NCBI GenBank assembly: GCA_016845245.1
Contig: JAERSY010000006.1
Location: 1 to 45,718 of the forward strand
DNA from: Phycisphaerae bacterium
Lineage (GTDB): Bacteria > Planctomycetota > Phycisphaerae > Phycisphaerales > SM1A02
Direction of reading: 5' to 3'
DNA: 45,718 nucleotides
Part shown: positions 5,643 through 33,437 of the stretch, one piece after another
Position numbering within the stretch: position 1 is the stretch's first letter
How the letters are laid out: every line of letters begins with the position of its first letter
Notes under the pieces: generated by a model
The model's input: the letters and a program-made list of their open reading frames with translations, nothing else
What the model was told of the DNA's origin: nothing
The model's database searches: none
Translations under genes and position numbers: made by a program

Positions 5643-6935
5643 TTACTCATCTTCAACTTTCGGAACTTCTGAACCATGTGGATCGTGGGTTGCTGTCCCA
5701 AGTTCTTCTTGCATCGCATCTGTTGTCACGTGTTCAAGACGTGATGCAGCATGGTGTAACTGATGCGTATCTTGTGGAAAATGCTTGTCAAGATAGACTT
5801 CCCAAAGCCGGTGTGTTCGAACGATTGACGTTGCTTGGTTCCGGCCTTCCGTCGTGAGTTTGATTGCACCATCATCTGATTGCACTGCTCCCGAGCGTTT
5901 CAAACTCATCATCGCCATTGCAAACATCAAGTGATTGGAGCGAAGAAGGTCTTGCAGATTGCGCTGCATAAGCACGGGTTGTTCTCGCTCTTCCAATCGC
6001 CACAAGACGCCAAGGACATCCTCTCTCAATATTTTAAGTCTCACGATGATGCGGTTTACAATCAATACAACAAGACCATGTCGTGGAGAACAAATCCATG
6101 CAAGAAGGAAAAGAAGACCCGCTGCAACTGCCATCGCCCCTGAAGTAACTGTCCCATTAAAACCAAACCACAACGGAATCGTGATTGCGCCAAGGTGACC
6201 AAGAAACGATGAAAGGCATGCGACAATCAATGCGACGACGATTAACATCCAGTACCGATCGGTCAAGAGATACGCGGTCGCAGGTGGAACAATAAACATT
6301 GCTACGACTAAGATTGAGCCAACTGATTCAAATGCTGCAACTGCTGTGACCGCTGTCATTGTCATCAATACATAATGCATCAGTTCAGGCCTAAACCCTT
6401 GCGATTGAGCAAGCGCTTGGTCGAATGATGCAATTTTAAACTCTTTGTAAAACAGAACAATCAAAACCGCATTCACAATGAGCATCGTTCCATTCACAAT
6501 AAAACTTCTTGGAACCATGTATCCAAACAGTGAATCTTGTTCAAAGTACGCAAACTCAATTGAACCGTACAACACGCAATCTGGATCCATATGGACGTGG
6601 TCAAGGGCTTGCCGAATGAGTATCAACCCAAGTGCAAAAAGAACCGTAAACACAATGCCGATTGATGCGCCAATTTCTACCTTTCCATACTTCTGAATGG
6701 CATGGACAAAGAGTGCTGTTAACACGCCAATGACGATTGCACCAACAAACATTGAAAATGGATCTCGGGAACCAGTGACAAGAAATGCGATTGCAATGCC
6801 CGGAAGTACTGTGTGACTGATTGCATCACCCATCAAACTCATTTTCCGCAACACTAGCAGTGTGCCCGGCAGAGCGCACGCTGAAGCGCAGAGTGCACCA
6901 ATAACAATAATCCACCAATCTATTGAGGACATCAT
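5643..6935 (-). CDS. Metal ABC importer permease fused to a C-terminal DtxR-like domain (second permease)
   Basis: A 430-residue protein. Residues 1-300 are an ABC-3 family permease (8-9 hydrophobic helices) of the manganese/zinc/iron type, with GTLLVLRKMSLMGDAISHTV (24-43) and HVHMDPDCVLYGSIEF (113-128), hallmarks of MntC/TroD/YtgD permeases. Residues about 303-430 match DtxR/MntR: a winged-helix segment ending LTTEG, then HRLWEVYL (375-382) and LHHAASRLEHV (393-403), and finally DPHGSEVP. H375, E379, H394, E401 and H402 fall on DtxR metal ligands H79, E83, H98, E105 and H106; the C102 position is S398. The start codon overlaps the stop of the first permease (ATGA). A single such fusion is known in Chlamydia YtgCR. 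The helix-turn-helix recognition helix here is more diverged than in the first permease, so this domain may sense metal without binding DNA. Confidence 0.9.
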   Translation of the reverse strand: MMSSIDWWIIVIGALCASACALPGTLLVLRKMSLMGDAISHTVLPGIAIAFLVTGSRDPFSMFVGAIVIGVLTALFVHAIQKYGKVEIGASIGIVFTVLFALGLILIRQALDHVHMDPDCVLYGSIEFAYFEQDSLFGYMVPRSFIVNGTMLIVNAVLIVLFYKEFKIASFDQALAQSQGFRPELMHYVLMTMTAVTAVAAFESVGSILVVAMFIVPPATAYLLTDRYWMLIVVALIVACLSSFLGHLGAITIPLWFGFNGTVTSGAMAVAAGLLFLLAWICSPRHGLVVLIVNRIIVRLKILREDVLGVLWRLEEREQPVLMQRNLQDLLRSNHLMFAMAMMSLKRSGAVQSDDGAIKLTTEGRNQATSIVRTHRLWEVYLDKHFPQDTHQLHHAASRLEHVTTDAMQEELGTATHDPHGSEVPKVEDE

Positions 6936-8287
6936 GATGCACTGCCTCCAAGTGGATGAGGACTGTCAATGATTTCATCTTGAGCAAGTAAGAGTTCAAG
7001 TTGACGCACCATTTCCTTCCCAAGAACGTGTTCAATCATGTCTGCATCTCTGTCAACGTGAGAAGGTGCAATGTCTGCATAGTTGATGAGATAGACTTCC
7101 CACAAACGGTGGTTGCGGACCATTCGCTTTGACTCCGAGTTACCTAACTCAGTAAACCGCACCATAGAATTGCCCGTTCTATTGAGAAAGCCAAGTTGTT
7201 GAGCGCGTTTCACGATGGCGTTCACTTGAGATAGGGACCATGAGCGTTTCGCTAGGATTTCGTGCATCGGAATGTCTTCTGATTCTCGCTCTTCAACAAG
7301 TTCAAACATTGCGCGAAGGAGGTGTTGCAGCTCAATCTTGCGATTAAGCCGAACGCGTTGCACTTGTCGTTTCAACACCCCGCTGTCCGTACCAAACACC
7401 AAACTCAACAAGAACCAAAAGCCACAAATCATGACGATGATTGGCCCTGTTGGGACTCGTGGAATAACTGCACTCACAACTGCACCAAGCCAACCACTAA
7501 GGAGCCCGATGATTGCAGCTGAAATTAACATTCGTTTAACAGAGCTCGTCCAGAACCTTGAGGATGCTGCCGGAATAATGAGTAGTGCAACAGCAAGCAC
7601 AAGCCCAACGGTTTGAAGGGCGATGACTGTCACTATTGCAACAAGCAGCATCAAAACTGTGTCGAGTAGTAAGATTGGCCACCCTTGTGATGACCCAAAT
7701 GAAGCATCAAAACATAGAACGGAGAACTCTTTAAACAAAAGTCCGGTGCTGATTGCAACAAAAAGCGCAAGCCCCACCATCATATATGTGTCGCTTGCAA
7801 TCATCGATGCGGCTTTGCCAAAGATGAAACCTGACAACCCTGCCGAGTTGCCGCTTGGTAAATCTGTTGCCAGTCGAAGCAGACAGATTCCAAGTCCAAA
7901 AAGCACACTAAGCACAATGCCGATTGCAGCATCATCTTTGAGGCGAGTCGTTGAGCGAATTGCAATGATGAGTAACACCCCAATGCAACCGAACACAAAT
8001 GCGCCCGTGAGCAAACCCGCAAGTGATTTTCCATCACCCCCCATTGCAACCATACACATAAATGCAATCACGATGCCAGGAAGTGTTGCGTGACTTAGTG
8101 CATCTGCTGTCAATGCTCGTTTCCTGAGCACAAGAAATGTACCGATTAATCCAGATGCAAGGCCGAGCGCCATCACCCCAAGAACGACAACCCTCGTGTT
8201 GTACTCCTCAAGGAGGAGCACACGTAACAATTCATCCCATGTAGGCAAGGTGATTCGCACATCTGAGAGCGTGTGCGTTGCAATCAA
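6932..8287 (-). CDS. Metal ABC importer permease fused to a C-terminal DtxR-like domain (first permease)
   Basis: A 451-residue protein: permease domain about 30-300 (GTFLVLRKRALTADALSHAT, 49-68) followed by a DtxR-like domain 317-451. The latter begins with HLLRAMFELVEE, continues with a helix-turn-helix (IPMHEILAKRSWSLSQVNAI, 339-358), a wing ending FTELG, and a metal-binding region HRLWEVYL (393-400) and ADMIEHVLG (415-423). H393, E397, E419 and H420 match DtxR H79, E83, E105 and H106; D416 takes the C102 place, and H410 lies two residues before the H98 position. The start is TTG at 8287, overlapping the ATPase stop as TTGA, which indicates translational coupling. Function: import of a divalent metal, probably Mn2+ or Fe2+, across the inner membrane; the fused domain implies cytoplasmic metal sensing or a releasable repressor. 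Confidence 0.9.
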   Translation of the reverse strand: MIATHTLSDVRITLPTWDELLRVLLLEEYNTRVVVLGVMALGLASGLIGTFLVLRKRALTADALSHATLPGIVIAFMCMVAMGGDGKSLAGLLTGAFVFGCIGVLLIIAIRSTTRLKDDAAIGIVLSVLFGLGICLLRLATDLPSGNSAGLSGFIFGKAASMIASDTYMMVGLALFVAISTGLLFKEFSVLCFDASFGSSQGWPILLLDTVLMLLVAIVTVIALQTVGLVLAVALLIIPAASSRFWTSSVKRMLISAAIIGLLSGWLGAVVSAVIPRVPTGPIIVMICGFWFLLSLVFGTDSGVLKRQVQRVRLNRKIELQHLLRAMFELVEERESEDIPMHEILAKRSWSLSQVNAIVKRAQQLGFLNRTGNSMVRFTELGNSESKRMVRNHRLWEVYLINYADIAPSHVDRDADMIEHVLGKEMVRQLELLLAQDEIIDSPHPLGGSAS

Positions 8288-9114
8288 TGTGAATTCCCTT
8301 GCCTAGCAAATCGCTCAGCAGCTTCTGAAAGCAAGGTAAGCCGGCCACCATACGTCTTTCTCAAGTTATCTTCGGTAAAGACATCCGCTACGTCACCGTG
8401 CGCAACAACTCGCATGTTGAGCATAATGACGTAATCGAAATACTCAGGAACTGTTTGCAAGTCATGATGCACGACGACGACTGTCTTTCCCGCTTGTTTG
8501 AGCTCGTTGAGCACTTCTACGATTGCACGCTCAGTCGCTGCATCGACGCTCGCAAAGGGCTCATCCATGAAACAAATGGGGGCATTTTGAGCGAGCGCGC
8601 GAGCTAGAAAGACTCGTTGTTGCTGCCCGCCAGACAATTGACTGATTTGCCTGTGCGCATACGCTTCCATTCCAACTCGTTCAAGCGCTTCCATCGCAAC
8701 TTGCTTGTCCTTCTTCCGAACAGGCAAGCACCACCCAATCTTGCTGTACCGCCCCATCGTCACTACACCGATCGCATCGATAGGGAAATCCCAATCGACT
8801 GTTTCTCGTTGCGGCACATAAGAAACCATGTGCCGTTGCGCTTTAAAGGGCTTGCCATAAAATCGAACGAGTCCACTCGCTTTTGGGACTAAGTCCATGG
8901 CTGCCTTAATGAGCGTACTTTTCCCCGCGCCGTTTGGGCCAACAATTGTGACAAGTTTTCCCTCTGGAATATCTAAATCAACATCCCACAAGACCGGTTT
9001 ACGTTGATACGCAACCGTCATGTCATGAATTGAAACAGGCGCAGTGAGCGAATGCTCACTGTGCCTGACATTCTGCTTTTTAATGTTCGACATGGGCGAA
9101 ACTGAGTTTCCCAT
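8284..9114 (-). CDS. Metal ABC importer ATPase subunit
   Basis: A 276-residue ABC ATPase that powers the importer. Walker A is GPNGAGKST (about 59-67), the Q-loop is in VPQRETVDWDFP, the signature is LSGGQQQR, Walker B is ICFMDEPFA and the switch histidine is in VVHHDLQTV. The QRETVDWDFP segment is typical of the Mn/Zn/Fe (MntB/ZnuC/YtgB) group. The start at 9114 has AAAGGG about 5 bases upstream and overlaps the 3' end of the binding-protein gene by 35 bases; an ATG at 9093 is an alternative without such a site. The first 25 residues are polar and unconserved. Gene order binding protein, ATPase, permease, permease equals ytgABCD of Chlamydia and troABCD of Treponema. Confidence 0.95.
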   Translation of the reverse strand: MGNSVSPMSNIKKQNVRHSEHSLTAPVSIHDMTVAYQRKPVLWDVDLDIPEGKLVTIVGPNGAGKSTLIKAAMDLVPKASGLVRFYGKPFKAQRHMVSYVPQRETVDWDFPIDAIGVVTMGRYSKIGWCLPVRKKDKQVAMEALERVGMEAYAHRQISQLSGGQQQRVFLARALAQNAPICFMDEPFASVDAATERAIVEVLNELKQAGKTVVVVHHDLQTVPEYFDYVIMLNMRVVAHGDVADVFTEDNLRKTYGGRLTLLSEAAERFARQGNSH

Positions 9115-10030
9115 TCAGCCCTTTGTCAGGTGCAGTACCACCGAGTGATTGTGCAACTATTGTCGCATTGTGGTCTAGCATCCCAATGTAGGTGCCTTCA
9201 TATGTTCCGCTCGCGCCCATTGCATCTGAGAACAATGTCCCGCCAATCTTGACGTTGTGACCTTTTGCTTTCGCGCCTTCAATAAGCGCCTTAATGTTCC
9301 GATCAGAAACACTCGACTCAACGAATACCGCTTCAATGTTTCTGTCAACAAGAATATCAACAAGCGTGTTGACATCTTCGATGCCTGCTTCAGATTCGGT
9401 CGACAAGCCCTGTACTCCTAGGACTTCAACATCGTACGCGCGACCAAAATAGTTGAATGCATCGTGTGCAGTGACAAGCACACGCTTATCTTTAGGAATC
9501 GAGCTGAGGACTTTTTGAGCGTATGCGTTTAGTTCAACAAGTTCTTCTTGATACGCTTTTGCATTCGCTTTGTACGCTTCGCAGTTTTCAGGGTCTTGTT
9601 CACAAAACGCTTCTGTGATTGCATCAACCGCTTTTGACCAAGCAGCCACATCGTTCCACACATGTGGGTCCCAGTGTCCTTCGAACTCTTCTGGTTCAAG
9701 AAGATACTTTTCGTCGAGCAGTTCAGTCACTGGGTAAACCACTTTACCCATTCGAGACGCTTTAAAGAAGGTATCAACCATTCGACCCTCAAGCATGAGC
9801 CCGCTGTAAAAAATAATGTCTGCTCCGAGAATGACTTTGGCATCAGCAGCAGTCGGCTTGTAAAGATGAGGGTCAACGCCCTCGCCCATGAGTGCAGTGA
9901 CGTTTGCATGGTCACCTGCAACTTGTTTAGTGATGTCTGCAACCATTGCTGTTGTTGTCACCACTTCCAGTGGCTCTTTCACCATGCCAACAGCACACAA
10001 AACAGTTAAAATAGGCGTTAAAAGTATCAT
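9080..10030 (-). CDS. Periplasmic metal-binding protein of the importer (TroA/MntC/YtgA type)
   Basis: A 316-residue cluster A-I substrate-binding protein with an N-terminal signal sequence (MILLTPILTVLCAVGMV). Four metal ligands are visible: H55 (VDPHLYKP), H123 (DPHVW), H189 (TAHDAF) and D269 (LFSDAMG). Their spacing closely follows TroA H68, H133, H199 and D279. An all-His/Asp set without a His-rich loop favours manganese (or iron or zinc as in TroA) over the classic ZnuA pattern. The ATG at 10030 is chosen because AGGAG lies 5 bases upstream; the in-frame TTG at 10054 lies inside the inverted repeat. It is the first gene of a five-gene minus-strand run and is divergent from the DtxR-type regulator. 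Confidence 0.95.
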   Translation of the reverse strand: MILLTPILTVLCAVGMVKEPLEVVTTTAMVADITKQVAGDHANVTALMGEGVDPHLYKPTAADAKVILGADIIFYSGLMLEGRMVDTFFKASRMGKVVYPVTELLDEKYLLEPEEFEGHWDPHVWNDVAAWSKAVDAITEAFCEQDPENCEAYKANAKAYQEELVELNAYAQKVLSSIPKDKRVLVTAHDAFNYFGRAYDVEVLGVQGLSTESEAGIEDVNTLVDILVDRNIEAVFVESSVSDRNIKALIEGAKAKGHNVKIGGTLFSDAMGASGTYEGTYIGMLDHNATIVAQSLGGTAPDKGLNGKLSFAHVEH

Positions 10031-10039
10031 AATCACTCC

Positions 10040-10057
10040 TTTTTGATTAGTCAAAAA
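10040..10057. promoter_or_regulatory. Perfect inverted repeat, predicted operator for the divergent DtxR-type regulator
   Basis: TTTTTGA-TTAG-TCAAAAA is an exact inverted repeat with 7-bp arms and a 4-base centre. It lies between the predicted -10 element and the ribosome-binding site of the metal importer operon, covering the expected transcription start. DtxR/MntR-family proteins bind AT-rich palindromes of about this size. That this particular protein binds it is inference. Confidence 0.6.
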
Positions 10058-10085
10058 TTATACTTCATGTTATCTTATGACGCAA
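10057..10085 (-). promoter_or_regulatory. Predicted sigma-70 promoter of the metal importer operon
   Basis: On the minus strand, a perfect TATAAT (10062 down to 10057) is preceded after exactly 17 bases by TTGCGT (10085 down to 10080), which matches TTGACA at the first three positions. The start of transcription would fall near 10050, inside the inverted repeat, and the AGGAG site of the binding-protein gene follows at 10040-10036. The -35 hexamer lies over the first codons of the divergent regulator, so the two promoters are interlocked. Confidence 0.55.
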
Positions 10086-10748
10086 CTGATGCTTACAAGT
10101 ACCGTTGAAAATTATTTGAAAGCCCTTCTGAAACTCAGCAATCAAGGCGAGAACCGAGTTTCTACGGGCGATTTGGCGAAGGCACTCCATGTGACGCCGG
10201 GCTCAGCAACGTCAATGATTAAGACGCTTGCTGAAGCAGGTCTTGCACACCACAAACCACATTATGGCGTCCTTCTGACTGAAAAAGGTCACATCCTTGC
10301 AGTCCACGTCGTTCGAAGACACCGCATCATCGAACTTTTTCTAGTGAACGTCCTTGAAATGGAGTGGGATGAAGTTCACGCCGAAGCCGAACAACTTGAA
10401 CACGTCGTTTCGGATGAAGTGATTACTCGAATGGATAAGCTTCTTGGCTACCCAACACTCGACCCGCACGGCGATCCGATTCCGACCGCCGATGGCATGT
10501 TCATCGAACGCCCCCTCCATCCTTTATCACAATGCGAAGCAGGTCAACGTGTTCAAGTTGCGAGAATCTCAGACCAAAATAGTTCCTTTCTCAAGTTCGC
10601 TGAGTCACACGGCTTAACGCTTGGTGCTACGATTGAAGTTCAGAGGAGAAATGAACATGCAGAGTCAATCACACTTCAGTCTAATGAAGAAGAAATCACG
10701 CTCGGCTTTACTGCAGCAAATCGCATTGAAGTTGAATTCGTTAAGTAA
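10077..10748 (+). CDS. mntR: DtxR/MntR-family metal-dependent transcriptional regulator
   Basis: A 223-residue full-length DtxR-family repressor. Residues 8-75 form the winged helix (STVENYLKALLKL, then GDLAKALHVTPGSATSMIK as helix-turn-helix, and LTEKG). Residues 80-135 form the metal-binding and dimerisation domain: H82 and E86 in RHRIIELFL, H101, E105, E108 and H109 in VHAEAEQLEHV, then DPHGDPIP. E105 stands where DtxR has C102, as in manganese-sensing MntR. Residues about 155-223 form an SH3/FeoA-like third domain, which B. subtilis MntR lacks. It is transcribed away from the importer genes with 46 bases between starts, so it most likely represses them when metal is plentiful. It resembles the DtxR-like tails fused to both permeases. 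Confidence 0.93.
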   Translation: MTQLMLTSTVENYLKALLKLSNQGENRVSTGDLAKALHVTPGSATSMIKTLAEAGLAHHKPHYGVLLTEKGHILAVHVVRRHRIIELFLVNVLEMEWDEVHAEAEQLEHVVSDEVITRMDKLLGYPTLDPHGDPIPTADGMFIERPLHPLSQCEAGQRVQVARISDQNSSFLKFAESHGLTLGATIEVQRRNEHAESITLQSNEEEITLGFTAANRIEVEFVK

Positions 10749-28866: not shown

Positions 28867-30306
28867 TTAGAACTCGACCTGTAGTTGTGTTCTAAAGACC
28901 CACTCTCCATTCCGATTTGGTGATCCCCGCCAGCCAAGCATTTGGTTTGTGAAGATTCCTTGCAGCTCACCAAAGTTCCATCCGAAGTCACTGGTGACTT
29001 TGAGTTGTTGCCCTTCAAGATACCAGTTTGCTCCGCTCGTCAAGATTTGAATGGTTGCCCCACCCATCTCATCTTGCATGATGCCACCACCTTCAAATCG
29101 CATAAACAACTCAGTTGTATCTGAAACGTATTTGCTTCCCTGCACGATATACGCAATCATATCTGTATTCTGAACTGAGCTGTTAAATCCCTTGATGTTG
29201 TGAAATGTTCCTGAAGCATAGAATGATGCCCCATCAAAATTCATCGACAAGTCTGCAGTAATGCCCACAGAGTCGATTTTGCCGGCGCCTCCACCAAGCC
29301 TTTCTTCATTTTGGGAATGCATTGCAATTCCAACCATTTGCGCCCGATGGCTTCCAGGTGGTGAAGTAAACTGATTGAATTGTTGCCAGTCCCCCTCAAG
29401 GAGGAACTCTGCGCGTGCAGTCATAGACCAATCTGAATCTTGTCCGAGCCCTGCCCATGGTGGTGTTGGATTGGTGTTCCCTGCTTGATTGCCACGCATC
29501 GTCAGGCCACCATTTGAGGTTGAAACAAACAATCGCATATTGTCCATGAGCCATGTGAATTGGACGCCTTGTGACCTCGCAAGCCCGACCCTGTAATCCA
29601 TCAGAGAACGGTCTACCGCAAGTTGCCTTGCATCAGATACGAGTGACTCCCTTGTAAATGGAAGCATAAAAACGCCGAGTTTCGCTGACCACTCGTCGTT
29701 AATTTTGTATTTCAGCCATGCATCCCAATACCGAGCACCGATACGAAGAAGTGGCGAGTTAGAAATTGCATTTGGATCGAGCCATCCAAAACCCGGTTGG
29801 AAAAGAAAGGTGAGGTCTTGGTCAAACAAGTGCCCGCTCAAATTGAGCCGCGTCCTGCTGTTTTCCATGCCACCTCGCCACCTGTCCCACGAGAACCCAG
29901 TTCCCACTCGGAGGTAACTTTGAATGTACCGCTCTTGTACGAGTCCTCCGATGTTTAATCGGAATCGCCCATCACTACTTGCGATAAAGAAACCATCTGA
30001 CCAACCACCTAATAAACCATCACCGACAAGTGAAGAGCGTGCGTCTGCGTCGTCAAGCAAGTCCTTGACCAGCACTCTTAAGTCAGCTGCGCGTTCTTCA
30101 GTAATCCAATCTTGTTGATTTGCTTTCAACTCATCAAGTTCGCTACGCATCGAATCCGTATTCTGCTGAACTTCAAGTACTTGTTGCCTGAGTGCGTCGA
30201 TTTGCTTCTGAATGTCATTTGTATGTGCACCCAGGAACTCCGCAGGAACCATCACGCTCATGATGAGTAAGGCAATATGTAAATGTGGTTGGACTCTTTT
30301 AAACAT
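28867..30306 (-). CDS. Outer-membrane porin, OprO/OprP-like, paralog 1
   Basis: A 479-residue protein: signal peptide (ending AEFLGAHT), a coiled coil of about 40 residues (IQKQIDALRQQVLEVQQN), a conserved bridging motif VKDLLDDADARSSL, then SDGFFIASSDGRFRLNIGGL and a beta-barrel of phosphate-selective-porin type with girdle aromatics. It ends TQLQVEF, a C-terminal phenylalanine signal for BAM insertion. The N-terminal coil probably reaches the cell wall or forms trimers. The gene lies 7 bases after paralog 2 and is cotranscribed with it. Solute specificity cannot be told from sequence. Confidence 0.85.
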   Translation of the reverse strand: MFKRVQPHLHIALLIMSVMVPAEFLGAHTNDIQKQIDALRQQVLEVQQNTDSMRSELDELKANQQDWITEERAADLRVLVKDLLDDADARSSLVGDGLLGGWSDGFFIASSDGRFRLNIGGLVQERYIQSYLRVGTGFSWDRWRGGMENSRTRLNLSGHLFDQDLTFLFQPGFGWLDPNAISNSPLLRIGARYWDAWLKYKINDEWSAKLGVFMLPFTRESLVSDARQLAVDRSLMDYRVGLARSQGVQFTWLMDNMRLFVSTSNGGLTMRGNQAGNTNPTPPWAGLGQDSDWSMTARAEFLLEGDWQQFNQFTSPPGSHRAQMVGIAMHSQNEERLGGGAGKIDSVGITADLSMNFDGASFYASGTFHNIKGFNSSVQNTDMIAYIVQGSKYVSDTTELFMRFEGGGIMQDEMGGATIQILTSGANWYLEGQQLKVTSDFGWNFGELQGIFTNQMLGWRGSPNRNGEWVFRTQLQVEF

Positions 30307-30313
30307 TGTGACC

Positions 30314-31783
30314 TTAAAACATAAATTGCAGTTGGGTTCTCAACAACACCTGATCGTCTTTTGACGTATCGGAGTGCCAGCCAGCTTGGGTGTTTGCAAA
30401 TAATGAATTGATCTCTCCAATACTGAAACCAATGTCTGCGCTGAACTTTAAGTCTTGACCGTCTAGATAGTGATTCACTCCTACTGTGAGCAGTTGAAGC
30501 TCACTGTCTCCTAGACCGGGCTGGTCGCCGCTTCCCGTTTCATATCTTGCATACAACTCAGTTTGATTTGTGATGTACGAACTTCCCTGAAGTACAAATG
30601 CGATGAAATTAACATTTGGAACGAGGGGCGTAAAGTCAGTGAGGCGAGTATACGTCATCGCTGCGAACAGGGATGCACCATCATATTGCATCGAAACATC
30701 GCCAGTGACACTCCAGAAGACTTGCCGGTCATCAAGTTCACTCAGTGGCCTTGGGTCATCGAGTTCCGTATTTTGGCGGTGCCATGCAAGTCCCACAAGC
30801 ATCCCTCGCTCACTGCCGGGCGGAGATGTAAACTGATTGAACTGATCCCAGTCGCCTAACAGTTTCCATTCCTTTCGCATCGTAAATGAATACGCTGAAT
30901 CTTTTGATAACGCTGCAAGTGGGGGGGATGCATCTTGAGCAGCCCAAATGGGGTAAAAGAAGAATGCACCTGAACCATTTGAAAGCATGAGTTTGTATCG
31001 ACTTTCAGGCGAAGACCACGTCCACTCAACACCGGTCGTTGGACCTAGTCCAAATCGATAATCGAGGAGCGACTTGTCTACCGCAAGCTGATGTTGTGTC
31101 CGAACGAGCGACTCTCTGGTAAAAGGAAGTTCAAATGAGCCCAACTTCATACTAAAATCCTGTGTGAATCTAAACTTCAACCACGCTTCCCATAAGCGGA
31201 AGGTCATAAAGTTGCCGTTGTTCGTAAGGTTTGTTGGATCAAATCGACCCCAGCCAGTCGCGAGGTAATACTCAAGTGATTTATTGTGCACATGGCCACG
31301 AAAGTTGAGTTCAGTCCTCGGTTGACTAAAACTGTATCGCCATTGGTCATATGTCTGCGCGCTTGAGTTGGTTGGTCTTACACCTTGCCAACGAGTGAAA
31401 TAGCGGGACTCGACGAGGCCACCAATTTTTAGGGAAAACCTGCCATCTGCGCTACGCATTTGGAACCCATCGTTCCAGCCAATCATCGAGTGCCCCCCTT
31501 GATGATTGAAGCGTGTGTCTGCGTCGTCTAAAACGCCTTGAACAATCTGCGTGAGTAGTTGGCTTCGAGCTTCGTCTTTCGCATCCTCATTGTGATACTC
31601 AGAAAGTGCATCATCAAGTGCAGAACGAACCGCATCGTTTGCCGCCGTTGCCTCAGTCAGTTCTTGTTGAAGTTGCTCAAGTTGCTGCGTGTAGTCGGTG
31701 TTACTCTCACCGTAAGAAAGCCCAACACTCACAATAATGTAAGAGAGTGCCGTCGCAATCCATCGCTTAAGGCGTTGATCCAT
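30314..31783 (-). CDS. Outer-membrane porin, OprO/OprP-like, paralog 2
   Basis: A 489-residue porin with the same plan as paralog 1: signal peptide (IATALSYIIVSVGLSYG), coiled coil (QLEQLQQELTEATAAN), bridging motif VQGVLDDADTRFNHQGG, NDGFQMRSADGRFSLKIGGL and a beta-barrel ending TQLQFMF. Shared blocks such as ESLV, QLAVDKSLLDYRFGL and QFNQFTSPPGS show it is a close duplicate of paralog 1 (which has QLAVDRSLMDYRVGL and QFNQFTSPPGS). The start at 31783 begins the signal peptide and has AAGG 7 bases upstream; the frame is open to 31828. Confidence 0.85.
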   Translation of the reverse strand: MDQRLKRWIATALSYIIVSVGLSYGESNTDYTQQLEQLQQELTEATAANDAVRSALDDALSEYHNEDAKDEARSQLLTQIVQGVLDDADTRFNHQGGHSMIGWNDGFQMRSADGRFSLKIGGLVESRYFTRWQGVRPTNSSAQTYDQWRYSFSQPRTELNFRGHVHNKSLEYYLATGWGRFDPTNLTNNGNFMTFRLWEAWLKFRFTQDFSMKLGSFELPFTRESLVRTQHQLAVDKSLLDYRFGLGPTTGVEWTWSSPESRYKLMLSNGSGAFFFYPIWAAQDASPPLAALSKDSAYSFTMRKEWKLLGDWDQFNQFTSPPGSERGMLVGLAWHRQNTELDDPRPLSELDDRQVFWSVTGDVSMQYDGASLFAAMTYTRLTDFTPLVPNVNFIAFVLQGSSYITNQTELYARYETGSGDQPGLGDSELQLLTVGVNHYLDGQDLKFSADIGFSIGEINSLFANTQAGWHSDTSKDDQVLLRTQLQFMF

Positions 31784-31891
31784 CCGTAGACCTTTTCTGT
31801 CTTTCGACAAAATCATTCTATCACACACAACAAATCAAGGGTGTCTGCTCCTAAAACGTACGCATACGGTGGAATCGCTGTACCACGGAGA

Positions 31892-31925
31892 CGCAGAGGC
31901 ACGGAGTAGAAATAGTGCCTCTGTG
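31892..31925. repeat. CCACGGAG-type hairpin upstream of porin 2
   Basis: CGCAGAGGCAC and GTGCCTCTGTG form an 11-bp stem (one G-T pair) around a 12-base loop, inside the tract CCACGGAGACGCAGAGGCAC. Similar CCACGGAGACAC-like tracts are scattered in intergenic DNA of many unrelated environmental bacteria. Between 31784 and 31943 this is the only clear element; the rest must hold the porin 2 promoter, where TAGAAT near 31805 could be a -10 box. Confidence 0.5.
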
Positions 31926-31943
31926 GCAATCCCCTACGCCCAC

Positions 31944-31975
31944 AAAAAAACCGGCTGGTCTTTCGACCAGCCGGT
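31944..31975 (-). terminator. Strong intrinsic terminator after the porin remnant
   Basis: On the minus strand ACCGGCTGGTC and GACCAGCCGGT form a perfect 11-bp stem with a GAAA tetraloop, followed by a run of seven T. It belongs to the lost porin copy whose last codons remain at 32015-32059. Confidence 0.9.
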
Positions 31976-32033
31976 GAATGTCAAATTAATGACCTTCGGT
32001 TTAACTTCTAAAAATTAGAAGTAGAACTGAAGT
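31975..32033. repeat. 59-bp direct repeat, copy A (porin 3' end and 3' untranslated region)
   Basis: Identical over 59 bases to 32094-32152. It spans the last codons (QFYF plus stop) of a porin and the following untranslated stretch up to the terminator stem. Copy B belongs to the intact porin 3; copy A belongs to a remnant. Confidence 0.9.
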
Positions 32034-32059
32034 GAAGCATTCAGTTCAACTTCAAGGGC
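32015..32059 (-). pseudogene. Remnant of a fourth porin gene (last 14 codons)
   Basis: The minus strand encodes ALEVELNASLQFYF followed by TAA, the alternating beta-strand and C-terminal phenylalanine typical of the last porin strand, directly upstream of its own terminator. Everything before it is gone: the codons begin immediately after the T run of the porin 3 terminator. It is not an exact copy of the porin 3 end before the last residues, so it derives from a separate paralog. Confidence 0.7.
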
Positions 32060-32063
32060 ATAA

Positions 32064-32094
32064 AAAAACTCCCTGACCAAAAGGCCAGGGAGTT
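32064..32094 (-). terminator. Intrinsic terminator of porin 3
   Basis: On the minus strand AACTCCCTGGCC and GGTCAGGGAGTT form a 12-bp stem (one G-U pair) with a TTTT loop and a following T run. It lies 40 bases after the porin 3 stop. Confidence 0.92.
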
Positions 32095-32152
32095 GAATGT
32101 CAAATTAATGACCTTCGGTTTAACTTCTAAAAATTAGAAGTAGAACTGAAGT
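32094..32152. repeat. 59-bp direct repeat, copy B (end of porin 3)
   Basis: Partner of 31975-32033. It covers the last 6 codons plus stop of porin 3 and its 3' untranslated part. Perfect identity, including non-coding bases, points to recent duplication or to homogenisation between the two ends. Confidence 0.9.
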
Positions 32153-33369
32153 TGTGTAGCGATTGTTGTAACATCGCTAGCAGCACCTGCTGCACGGTCA
32201 TCCATAGTGAGCTCTGTAGTCCACTTCGCATTTTGACCAGCGAGGTAGTTGTTGACACCAACGCTAGTCATTGAACCAGCATCGCCATCATTGTCAGTCC
32301 AACGAGCGTAGACTTCCCAGTTATCACCCATATCCATGGAGTACATGATTTGAGTTTGGTTGAAGTCGTTAGCAGCAGCTAGACCGTCTGAACCATCAGT
32401 GTATGAAACGTAGAGAGCTGAACCGCCCCATTGCATTTGAACATCAAGGTTCCAAAGATTTTGGTCTGAAGTACCACCAGCAGCAGCGTTACCGTTGTCA
32501 TTGCCAGTGTATGAGAAACCAACAAGTGTACCAGCAGCTCCACCTTCAGCGCTGTGGAATTGGTCAAATTGACCCCATGAACCACTTGCAAGGTATTCAA
32601 CGCGAACGTTGTATGAGTATGAACTGTTGTTTGCTGCAGCGCTAGCTACGCCAGCATTATCTACAACTTGAATAGTAACTCCGAGGTCATCGCTTGAGTA
32701 ATCAAGTGAAACACCTTGGCCTACGTTGTAAACCGCTTGAGCACCAACAAAACCGTTCGCACGGCGGTCTAGAGCCATTTGGTTTTCGTCACCGATGAGT
32801 GCTTCACGGCTTGAAGCCATTTTGAATGAACCCATTGTGAGATCCCAACCATCACCAATTGTAAGTGAGCCATTTGCCCAGTCACCATTGTTGCCGTTAG
32901 GATTTGCAGTTGCTGTGCCAAGGTCGTGACGAACGTCATAACCGTAATCACCAGCAATAGTACCTGAGAAGTTCAACCAACTACGGTTGTTAGTGAAACC
33001 CCAAGTTTCGTCAGCAGCAGCGTCGTTATCAACGTTTGTCCAACGAGTTTGAAGAAGTCCATTAATAGTCATGGACCAGTTGCCGTCTGCACTGCCAACT
33101 GTGAAACCACCATTGTAACCAGCAGTAGCGCCGGAACCTTGAAGTGATGCACGTGTGTCAGCGTCAGCGAGAACGTCATGTACGAGGCCACGAATTTCGT
33201 CTGCACGAGCATCGTTTAGCCAGTTTGCGTTTGTTGCAGCTGAAAGTTCTGAGATTCGAGCTTCAGCAGCATCGAGGCGAGCTTGCAGGTCAGCGTTCGT
33301 GTCGCTACCGGCAAAGCCAGCACTAGTAAGCGTCAGTGTTGCGACGCCGAGAAGGTAAAGGTGACTCAT
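32134..33369 (-). CDS. Outer-membrane porin paralog 3, probably highly expressed
   Basis: A 411-residue porin: signal peptide (LYLLGVATLTLTSAGFAG), coiled coil (LQARLDAAEARISELSAAT), bridging motif VHDVLADADTRASLQG, then NGGFTVGSADGNWSMTINGL and a beta-barrel rich in N, G, D and aromatic residues, ending TQLQFYF. It is acidic with very few lysines and more diverged than the other two. The ATG at 33369 has AGGAG 8 bases upstream. A strong terminator, a good ribosome-binding site, a long structured leader and a narrow codon choice (many GCA/GCT/AAC/CAA repeats) all suggest an abundant outer-membrane protein. Shares the ADTRxSL motif and barrel style with paralogs 1 and 2. Confidence 0.85.
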   Translation of the reverse strand: MSHLYLLGVATLTLTSAGFAGSDTNADLQARLDAAEARISELSAATNANWLNDARADEIRGLVHDVLADADTRASLQGSGATAGYNGGFTVGSADGNWSMTINGLLQTRWTNVDNDAAADETWGFTNNRSWLNFSGTIAGDYGYDVRHDLGTATANPNGNNGDWANGSLTIGDGWDLTMGSFKMASSREALIGDENQMALDRRANGFVGAQAVYNVGQGVSLDYSSDDLGVTIQVVDNAGVASAAANNSSYSYNVRVEYLASGSWGQFDQFHSAEGGAAGTLVGFSYTGNDNGNAAAGGTSDQNLWNLDVQMQWGGSALYVSYTDGSDGLAAANDFNQTQIMYSMDMGDNWEVYARWTDNDGDAGSMTSVGVNNYLAGQNAKWTTELTMDDRAAGAASDVTTIATQLQFYF

Positions 33370-33437
33370 TGTCAACTCTCCTAAATTATCGAACGCCAAT
33401 GCCGACTCCCGTGGCTTAGACGTCCTAACCATCCACC

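Follow-up and report, generated by a model that had tools for sequence, protein, structure and literature searches.

A metal-uptake locus with a divergent regulator

The window analyzed here, a stretch of 45,718 nucleotides, carries an ABC importer operon on its minus strand and a regulator gene oriented in the opposite direction. The first gene of the operon (9080-10030) encodes a TroA-like metal-binding protein of the ZnuA family (PF01297), whose closest match in the PDB is TroA of T. pallidum (1k0f/1toa, E 9e-74). Its TAHDAF sequence aligns with vtahdaf of TroA, and the third metal ligand is presumably His as in TroA, not Glu as in PsaA. The remaining operon genes encode an ATP-binding subunit of the Mn/Fe/Zn transporter type (8284-9114) and two ABC-3 permeases (6932-8287 and 5643-6935), each of which combines PF00950 with PF02742. 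Both permeases carry DtxR-like metal-binding/dimerization domains at their C termini, even though a stand-alone regulator is encoded next door. Elsewhere on the minus strand of the window, three porin-like genes of related sequence stand adjacent in tandem (28867-33432).

The plus-strand gene (10089-10748, from its probable true start) encodes a three-domain metalloregulator of the DtxR family that resembles TroR and MntR. The protein has the N-terminal winged-helix domain (PF01325, 9.8e-14) and the central metal-binding/dimerization domain (PF02742, 4.3e-31) of the DtxR/MntR/TroR family, together with a FeoA/SH3 domain, and among solved structures it is closest to 5zr4, 8pvt, SloR, and ScaR. 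Residues H78, E82, H97, E101, E104, and H105 (numbered from 10089) are invariant in 29 homologs and form the ligand pattern of the family, H-x3-E and H-x3-E-x2-E-H. We take them to be equivalent to H79, E83, H98, C102, E105, and H106 of DtxR, and presumably they constitute a metal site of the DtxR family in which Glu replaces Cys102. The Mn-specific MntR of B. subtilis is marked by Asp8, Glu11, and a two-domain architecture. The protein described here instead has Asn8 (Asp in some homologs), an invariant Lys11, and the FeoA/SH3 domain, and therefore it is not an MntR of the B. subtilis type. Similarly, its best score against the NCBIfam MntR equivalogs NF047407, PRK11050, and PRK03902 is 170.5 bits, below the curated cut-off of 350.

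The same genome encodes one Fur protein and a second DtxR-family regulator (contig C107 of G000). At L162:1840-2353, the latter is located upstream of an outer-membrane protein gene, and two inverted repeats between these genes, GTAGCCACGGCTAC and GTAGCCGTGGCTAC, may be an operator pair for the C107 regulator.

The regulator next to the importer very probably starts at 10089 rather than at an ATG present at 10077, because all 13 members of the genus have an ATG at the former position and the conserved protein, with its N-terminal pattern M-x-x-STVE-x-YLK, begins there. The bases aligned to the ATG at 10077 are ATTCCG in the nearest relative (G010), whose regulator protein is 90% identical, and ATAAG, ATAAA, ATAAT, or ACAAG in the others. 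Judged from this alignment, the ATG at 10077 is a private substitution. The choice of start alters the geometry given in a preliminary description of this DNA, in that its 46 bases between the start codons hold for the interval from 10030 to the ATG at 10077, and the distance is 58 bases when the regulator starts at 10089. The importer ATG occupies 10030-10028, one base away from the start previously placed at 10031.

An inverted repeat at the importer promoter

Between the two genes lies TTTTTGATTAGTCAAAAA (10040-10057), which is, as first described, an exact inverted repeat with 7-bp arms (TTTTTGA-TTAG-TCAAAAA). On its importer side is the ribosome-binding site AGGAG (minus strand, 10040-10036), present where it had been claimed, and on the opposite side is TATAAT (minus strand, 10057-10062), the -10 element of the importer promoter. 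This hexamer abuts the palindrome, as had been stated, if the 16-bp core (10041-10056) is considered, but it shares one base with the 18-mer. The corresponding -35 element, TTGCGT (minus strand, 10080-10085), is separated from the -10 element by a spacer of 17 bp and is poor, with matches to the consensus at three of six positions. Although it had been placed within the first codons of the regulator, it sits three bases upstream of the first codon when the start is at 10089.

Palindromes of this sort could arise by chance in AT-rich intergenic DNA. The window holds 71 exact inverted repeats with 7-bp arms (gaps of 0-8), and 3.6% of shuffled versions of the intergenic sequence contain one. By itself, the inverted repeat is weak evidence, and the case for the site rests on conservation rather than on symmetry. 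In a genome-wide pattern search, the exact 18-mer pattern TTTTTGANNNNTCAAAAA occurs a single time in the 1.9-Mb genome, and the scan for TTTTTGA-N4-TCAAAAA before other metal genes, which had been suggested earlier, returned no second exact copy. The 16-mer core with at most two mismatches is found at three more sites in the genome, every one of them within a reading frame, and no wider regulon in the same genome was found by these searches.

Conservation of the palindrome and promoter within the genus

The consensus sequence TTTTGATTAATCAAAA or a near copy is present at the equivalent place in each of the 13 genus genomes, always 31-32 bp from the regulator ATG. These copies keep 14-16 of the 16 consensus bases, with perfect copies in five genomes, and the copy in the window departs from the consensus by a single change, G for A at 10050. 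In the genus alignment, the palindrome is the most conserved intergenic block (1.84 bits per base), compared with 0.76 bits per base between the palindrome and the importer ATG and 0.87 bits per base for the signal-peptide codons of the importer. The consensus is an exact TTTTGAT-N2-ATCAAAA, which is a palindrome of the TroR type. In two members of the genus, a uvrC-like ORF is preceded, at a distance of 19 bp, by TTTTGATAAATCAAAA (L163:1524 and L164:1518).

A comparison of promoter hexamers across the 13 genus genomes (L006 was also scanned) reveals that every one of them keeps a -35-like hexamer, a spacer of exactly 17 bp, and a -10-like hexamer that touches the palindrome. Most relatives pair TTGACT, TTGATT, or TTGAAT with TAAACT or TATACT, and the pair TTGCGT or TTGCGG with TATAAT is found in the species of the window and its nearest relative. 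An alternative importer promoter, TTGACT-17-TATGAT (10054-10026), was rejected because its start would fall within the coding region, and because relatives conserve the other pair of hexamers.

From the conserved hexamers, importer transcription is predicted to start near 10050. This prediction bears on the idea that the palindrome works as RNA, in the form of an importer-leader hairpin that regulates how accessible the ribosome-binding site is. The arms can pair beside AGGAG, and the leader as a whole folds with about -4 kcal/mol, but the leader fold is no better than those of shuffled sequences (z -0.15), and the left arm would be absent from the mRNA because transcription from the conserved promoter would start inside the palindrome. 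Furthermore, the distance between palindrome and regulator start ranges from 31 to ~134 bp in relatives, where the palindrome serves genes on either strand. We consider control by such a hairpin to be highly improbable.

On the regulator side of the palindrome, a conserved -10-like element (plus strand, 10071-10076) reads TATCTT here, TATCCT in the nearest relative, and TATGCT in 11 relatives. This candidate is probably the -10 element of a short-leader promoter for the regulator, with transcription expected to begin near 10083, and its conservation is an indirect sign that the regulator is likely to control its own gene.

The box beyond the genus

Exact matches to TTTTGAYTARTCAAAA are found at 22 sites in 20 of the 201 genomes of the order, whereas a reversed-letter control gives no match in the same 201 genomes. 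Together with the place and spacing kept in all 13 genus members, this conserved footprint refutes an origin by chance, an explanation to which we give almost no credence. Among the genomes scored in both the site and the regulator searches, the exact site is present in 14 of 38 that have the regulator and in 0 of 38 that do not (Fisher p 3e-5, a value that ignores kinship). Six further site-bearing genomes of the order were checked, and the regulator is present in all of them. The exact site is absent from 24 of the 38 order genomes that have the regulator, and no palindrome was found upstream of the regulators of L015, L017, L018, L028, and L030.

The genes neighboring the order sites include those for the regulator and TroA-like proteins, for DtxR/FeoA proteins followed by FeoB, for OprB-family porins, and for a Phenol_MetA_deg-like outer-membrane protein. 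A looser pattern applied at the class level also recovers NRAMP genes divergent from the regulator (L151, L153), and many matches to this pattern fall in reading frames. For regulators of ~40-50% identity from Planctomycetota, Verrucomicrobiota, and Acidobacteriota, a box in the upstream DNA is much more frequent than in shuffles. Specifically, 22 of 80 named GTDB loci, mostly from these phyla, score at least 12/14 within 300 bp upstream, and no box at this threshold and distance was found for the actinobacterial loci among the 80.

At L051, L053, and L063 (site at 1501), an exact copy of the box stands directly before OprB-family porin genes, whose products are candidate Mn/Fe porins. At L049, L055, and L056, the box precedes the gene for a DtxR-domain/FeoA fusion protein and then FeoB, which was recognized by Pfam in L049 and by eye in L055 and L056.

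The half site TTGAT resembles the half site of FNR, and the palindrome might belong to another dimeric regulator such as FNR or CRP (TTGAT-N4-ATCAA), with the nearby metal genes being coincidental. However, the conserved copies have the form TTGAT-N2-ATCAA, a spacing that is two bases short for FNR/CRP, and the site is associated with metal-uptake genes and with the presence of the DtxR-family regulator. An FNR- or CRP-like protein is thus a most unlikely occupant.

Likeness to known metal-responsive systems

In T. denticola, the TroR operator ATTTTGATATATCAAAAT is located upstream of troA, flanked by TATAAT and AGGAG, and the tro promoter/operator oligonucleotides contain TATAATCATAATTTTGATATATCAAAATAGGAG for T. 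denticola and CTTTGATGCATCAAAAT for T. pallidum (PMC2628430). T. denticola TroR is dependent on Mn2+ or Fe2+, and four changed operator bases largely relieve repression (PMC2628430). A literature search with the exact palindrome strings gave no match, and the match to TroR comes from the oligonucleotide sequences in PMC2628430. The 7-bp arms of the Treponema operators, TTTTGAT/ATCAAAA, are identical to those here, as is the order of TATAAT, operator, and AGGAG in T. denticola, and both systems comprise a TroA-like binding protein, an ATPase, two permeases, and a DtxR-family regulator. In all 13 genus genomes, the palindrome adjoins or overlaps a sigma-70-like promoter of a TroA-type importer, as is typical of the TroR type. 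The systems differ in the central two operator bases (AT or GC in Treponema, TA here), in the location of the regulator gene (troR inside the operon, divergent here), and in the DtxR-like C-terminal domains of the permeases described here. In addition, the -10 element touches the operator in our locus, whereas the T. denticola promoter is described as lying apart from the operator and the T. pallidum promoter as overlapping it.

A likeness at the protein level is offered by the MntR-like DR2539 of Deinococcus radiodurans, a DtxR-family member that likewise has three domains and carries Lys where B. subtilis MntR has Glu11, and for which a regular B. subtilis-type MntR site has been argued to be impossible and a dual Mn/Fe response reported (PMC3327659). 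DR2539 recognizes an inverted repeat in the promoter of an importer gene and responds to Mn2+ and Fe2+, properties that are predicted by analogy for our regulator. The target of DR2539 is mntH (PMC3327659), and the comparison covers the protein, its metal response, and its target gene.

Chlamydia YtgCR, encoded in the operon of a TroA-type importer, resembles the permeases of this locus in that a DtxR-like domain is attached to a permease; it is cleaved to yield an iron-dependent repressor, and fusions have been reported in 11 phyla (PMC6504234, PMC5599777). By this precedent, the operator could be real and yet be acted on, alone or additionally, by a DtxR-like domain released from the permeases (5643-8287), both of which carry C-terminal Fe_dep_repr_C domains. 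However, the fused domains match weakly (~50 bits versus 107), and no Pfam DNA-binding domain is detected in them. Moreover, the palindrome accompanies the gene of the stand-alone regulator in different genera and phyla, even beside NRAMP or FeoB, without this transporter. Whereas regulation in Chlamydia is carried out by the fused domain after its cleavage, a stand-alone regulator is also encoded next door here, and we regard action by a released domain as improbable.

Proposed mechanism of control

We conclude that 10040-10057 is, with high likelihood, a TroR-type operator through which the metal-loaded, divergently encoded DtxR-family regulator represses the importer and probably itself. 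At sufficient cytoplasmic concentrations of Mn2+ and/or Fe2+, the metal-loaded regulator would bind TTTTGATTAGTCAAAA. Relative to the predicted importer start, this site would extend from about -7 to +11, and binding would therefore exclude RNA polymerase and silence the troABCD-like operon, which runs on the minus strand from 10030 to 5643. The bound regulator would at the same time cover the -35 region of the short-leader promoter of the regulator, probably causing autorepression. When metal levels fall, the regulator would leave the site, such that importer and regulator would both be transcribed.

Binding, metal response, and repression by this regulator are proposed by analogy with TroR. 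The preliminary description suggested that a protein bound at the palindrome would block the importer and could affect its own gene, and this reading gains support from the footprint in all 13 genus genomes, the promoter geometry that these genomes share, the association with metal-uptake genes seen throughout the order, and the near-identity to a tested TroR operator. The second DtxR-family regulator, Fur, and the two permease-fused DtxR-like domains could bind the site as well. A broader and speculative proposal, which we judge rather unlikely, is that genes for ABC importers, NRAMP, FeoB, and outer-membrane porins in Planctomycetota and related phyla belong to a single metalloregulon defined by the TroR-type box, with permease-fused DtxR-like domains feeding transport status back onto the box.

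The site is well supported as an on/off switch of an already known kind for manganese/iron uptake. Its likeness ties a DNA site of an uncultured planctomycete to an experimentally studied spirochete operator, which makes the metal regulon predictable. In relatives, this box also stands at importer, FeoB, and porin genes, so porins whose cargo is unknown may prove to be metal channels.
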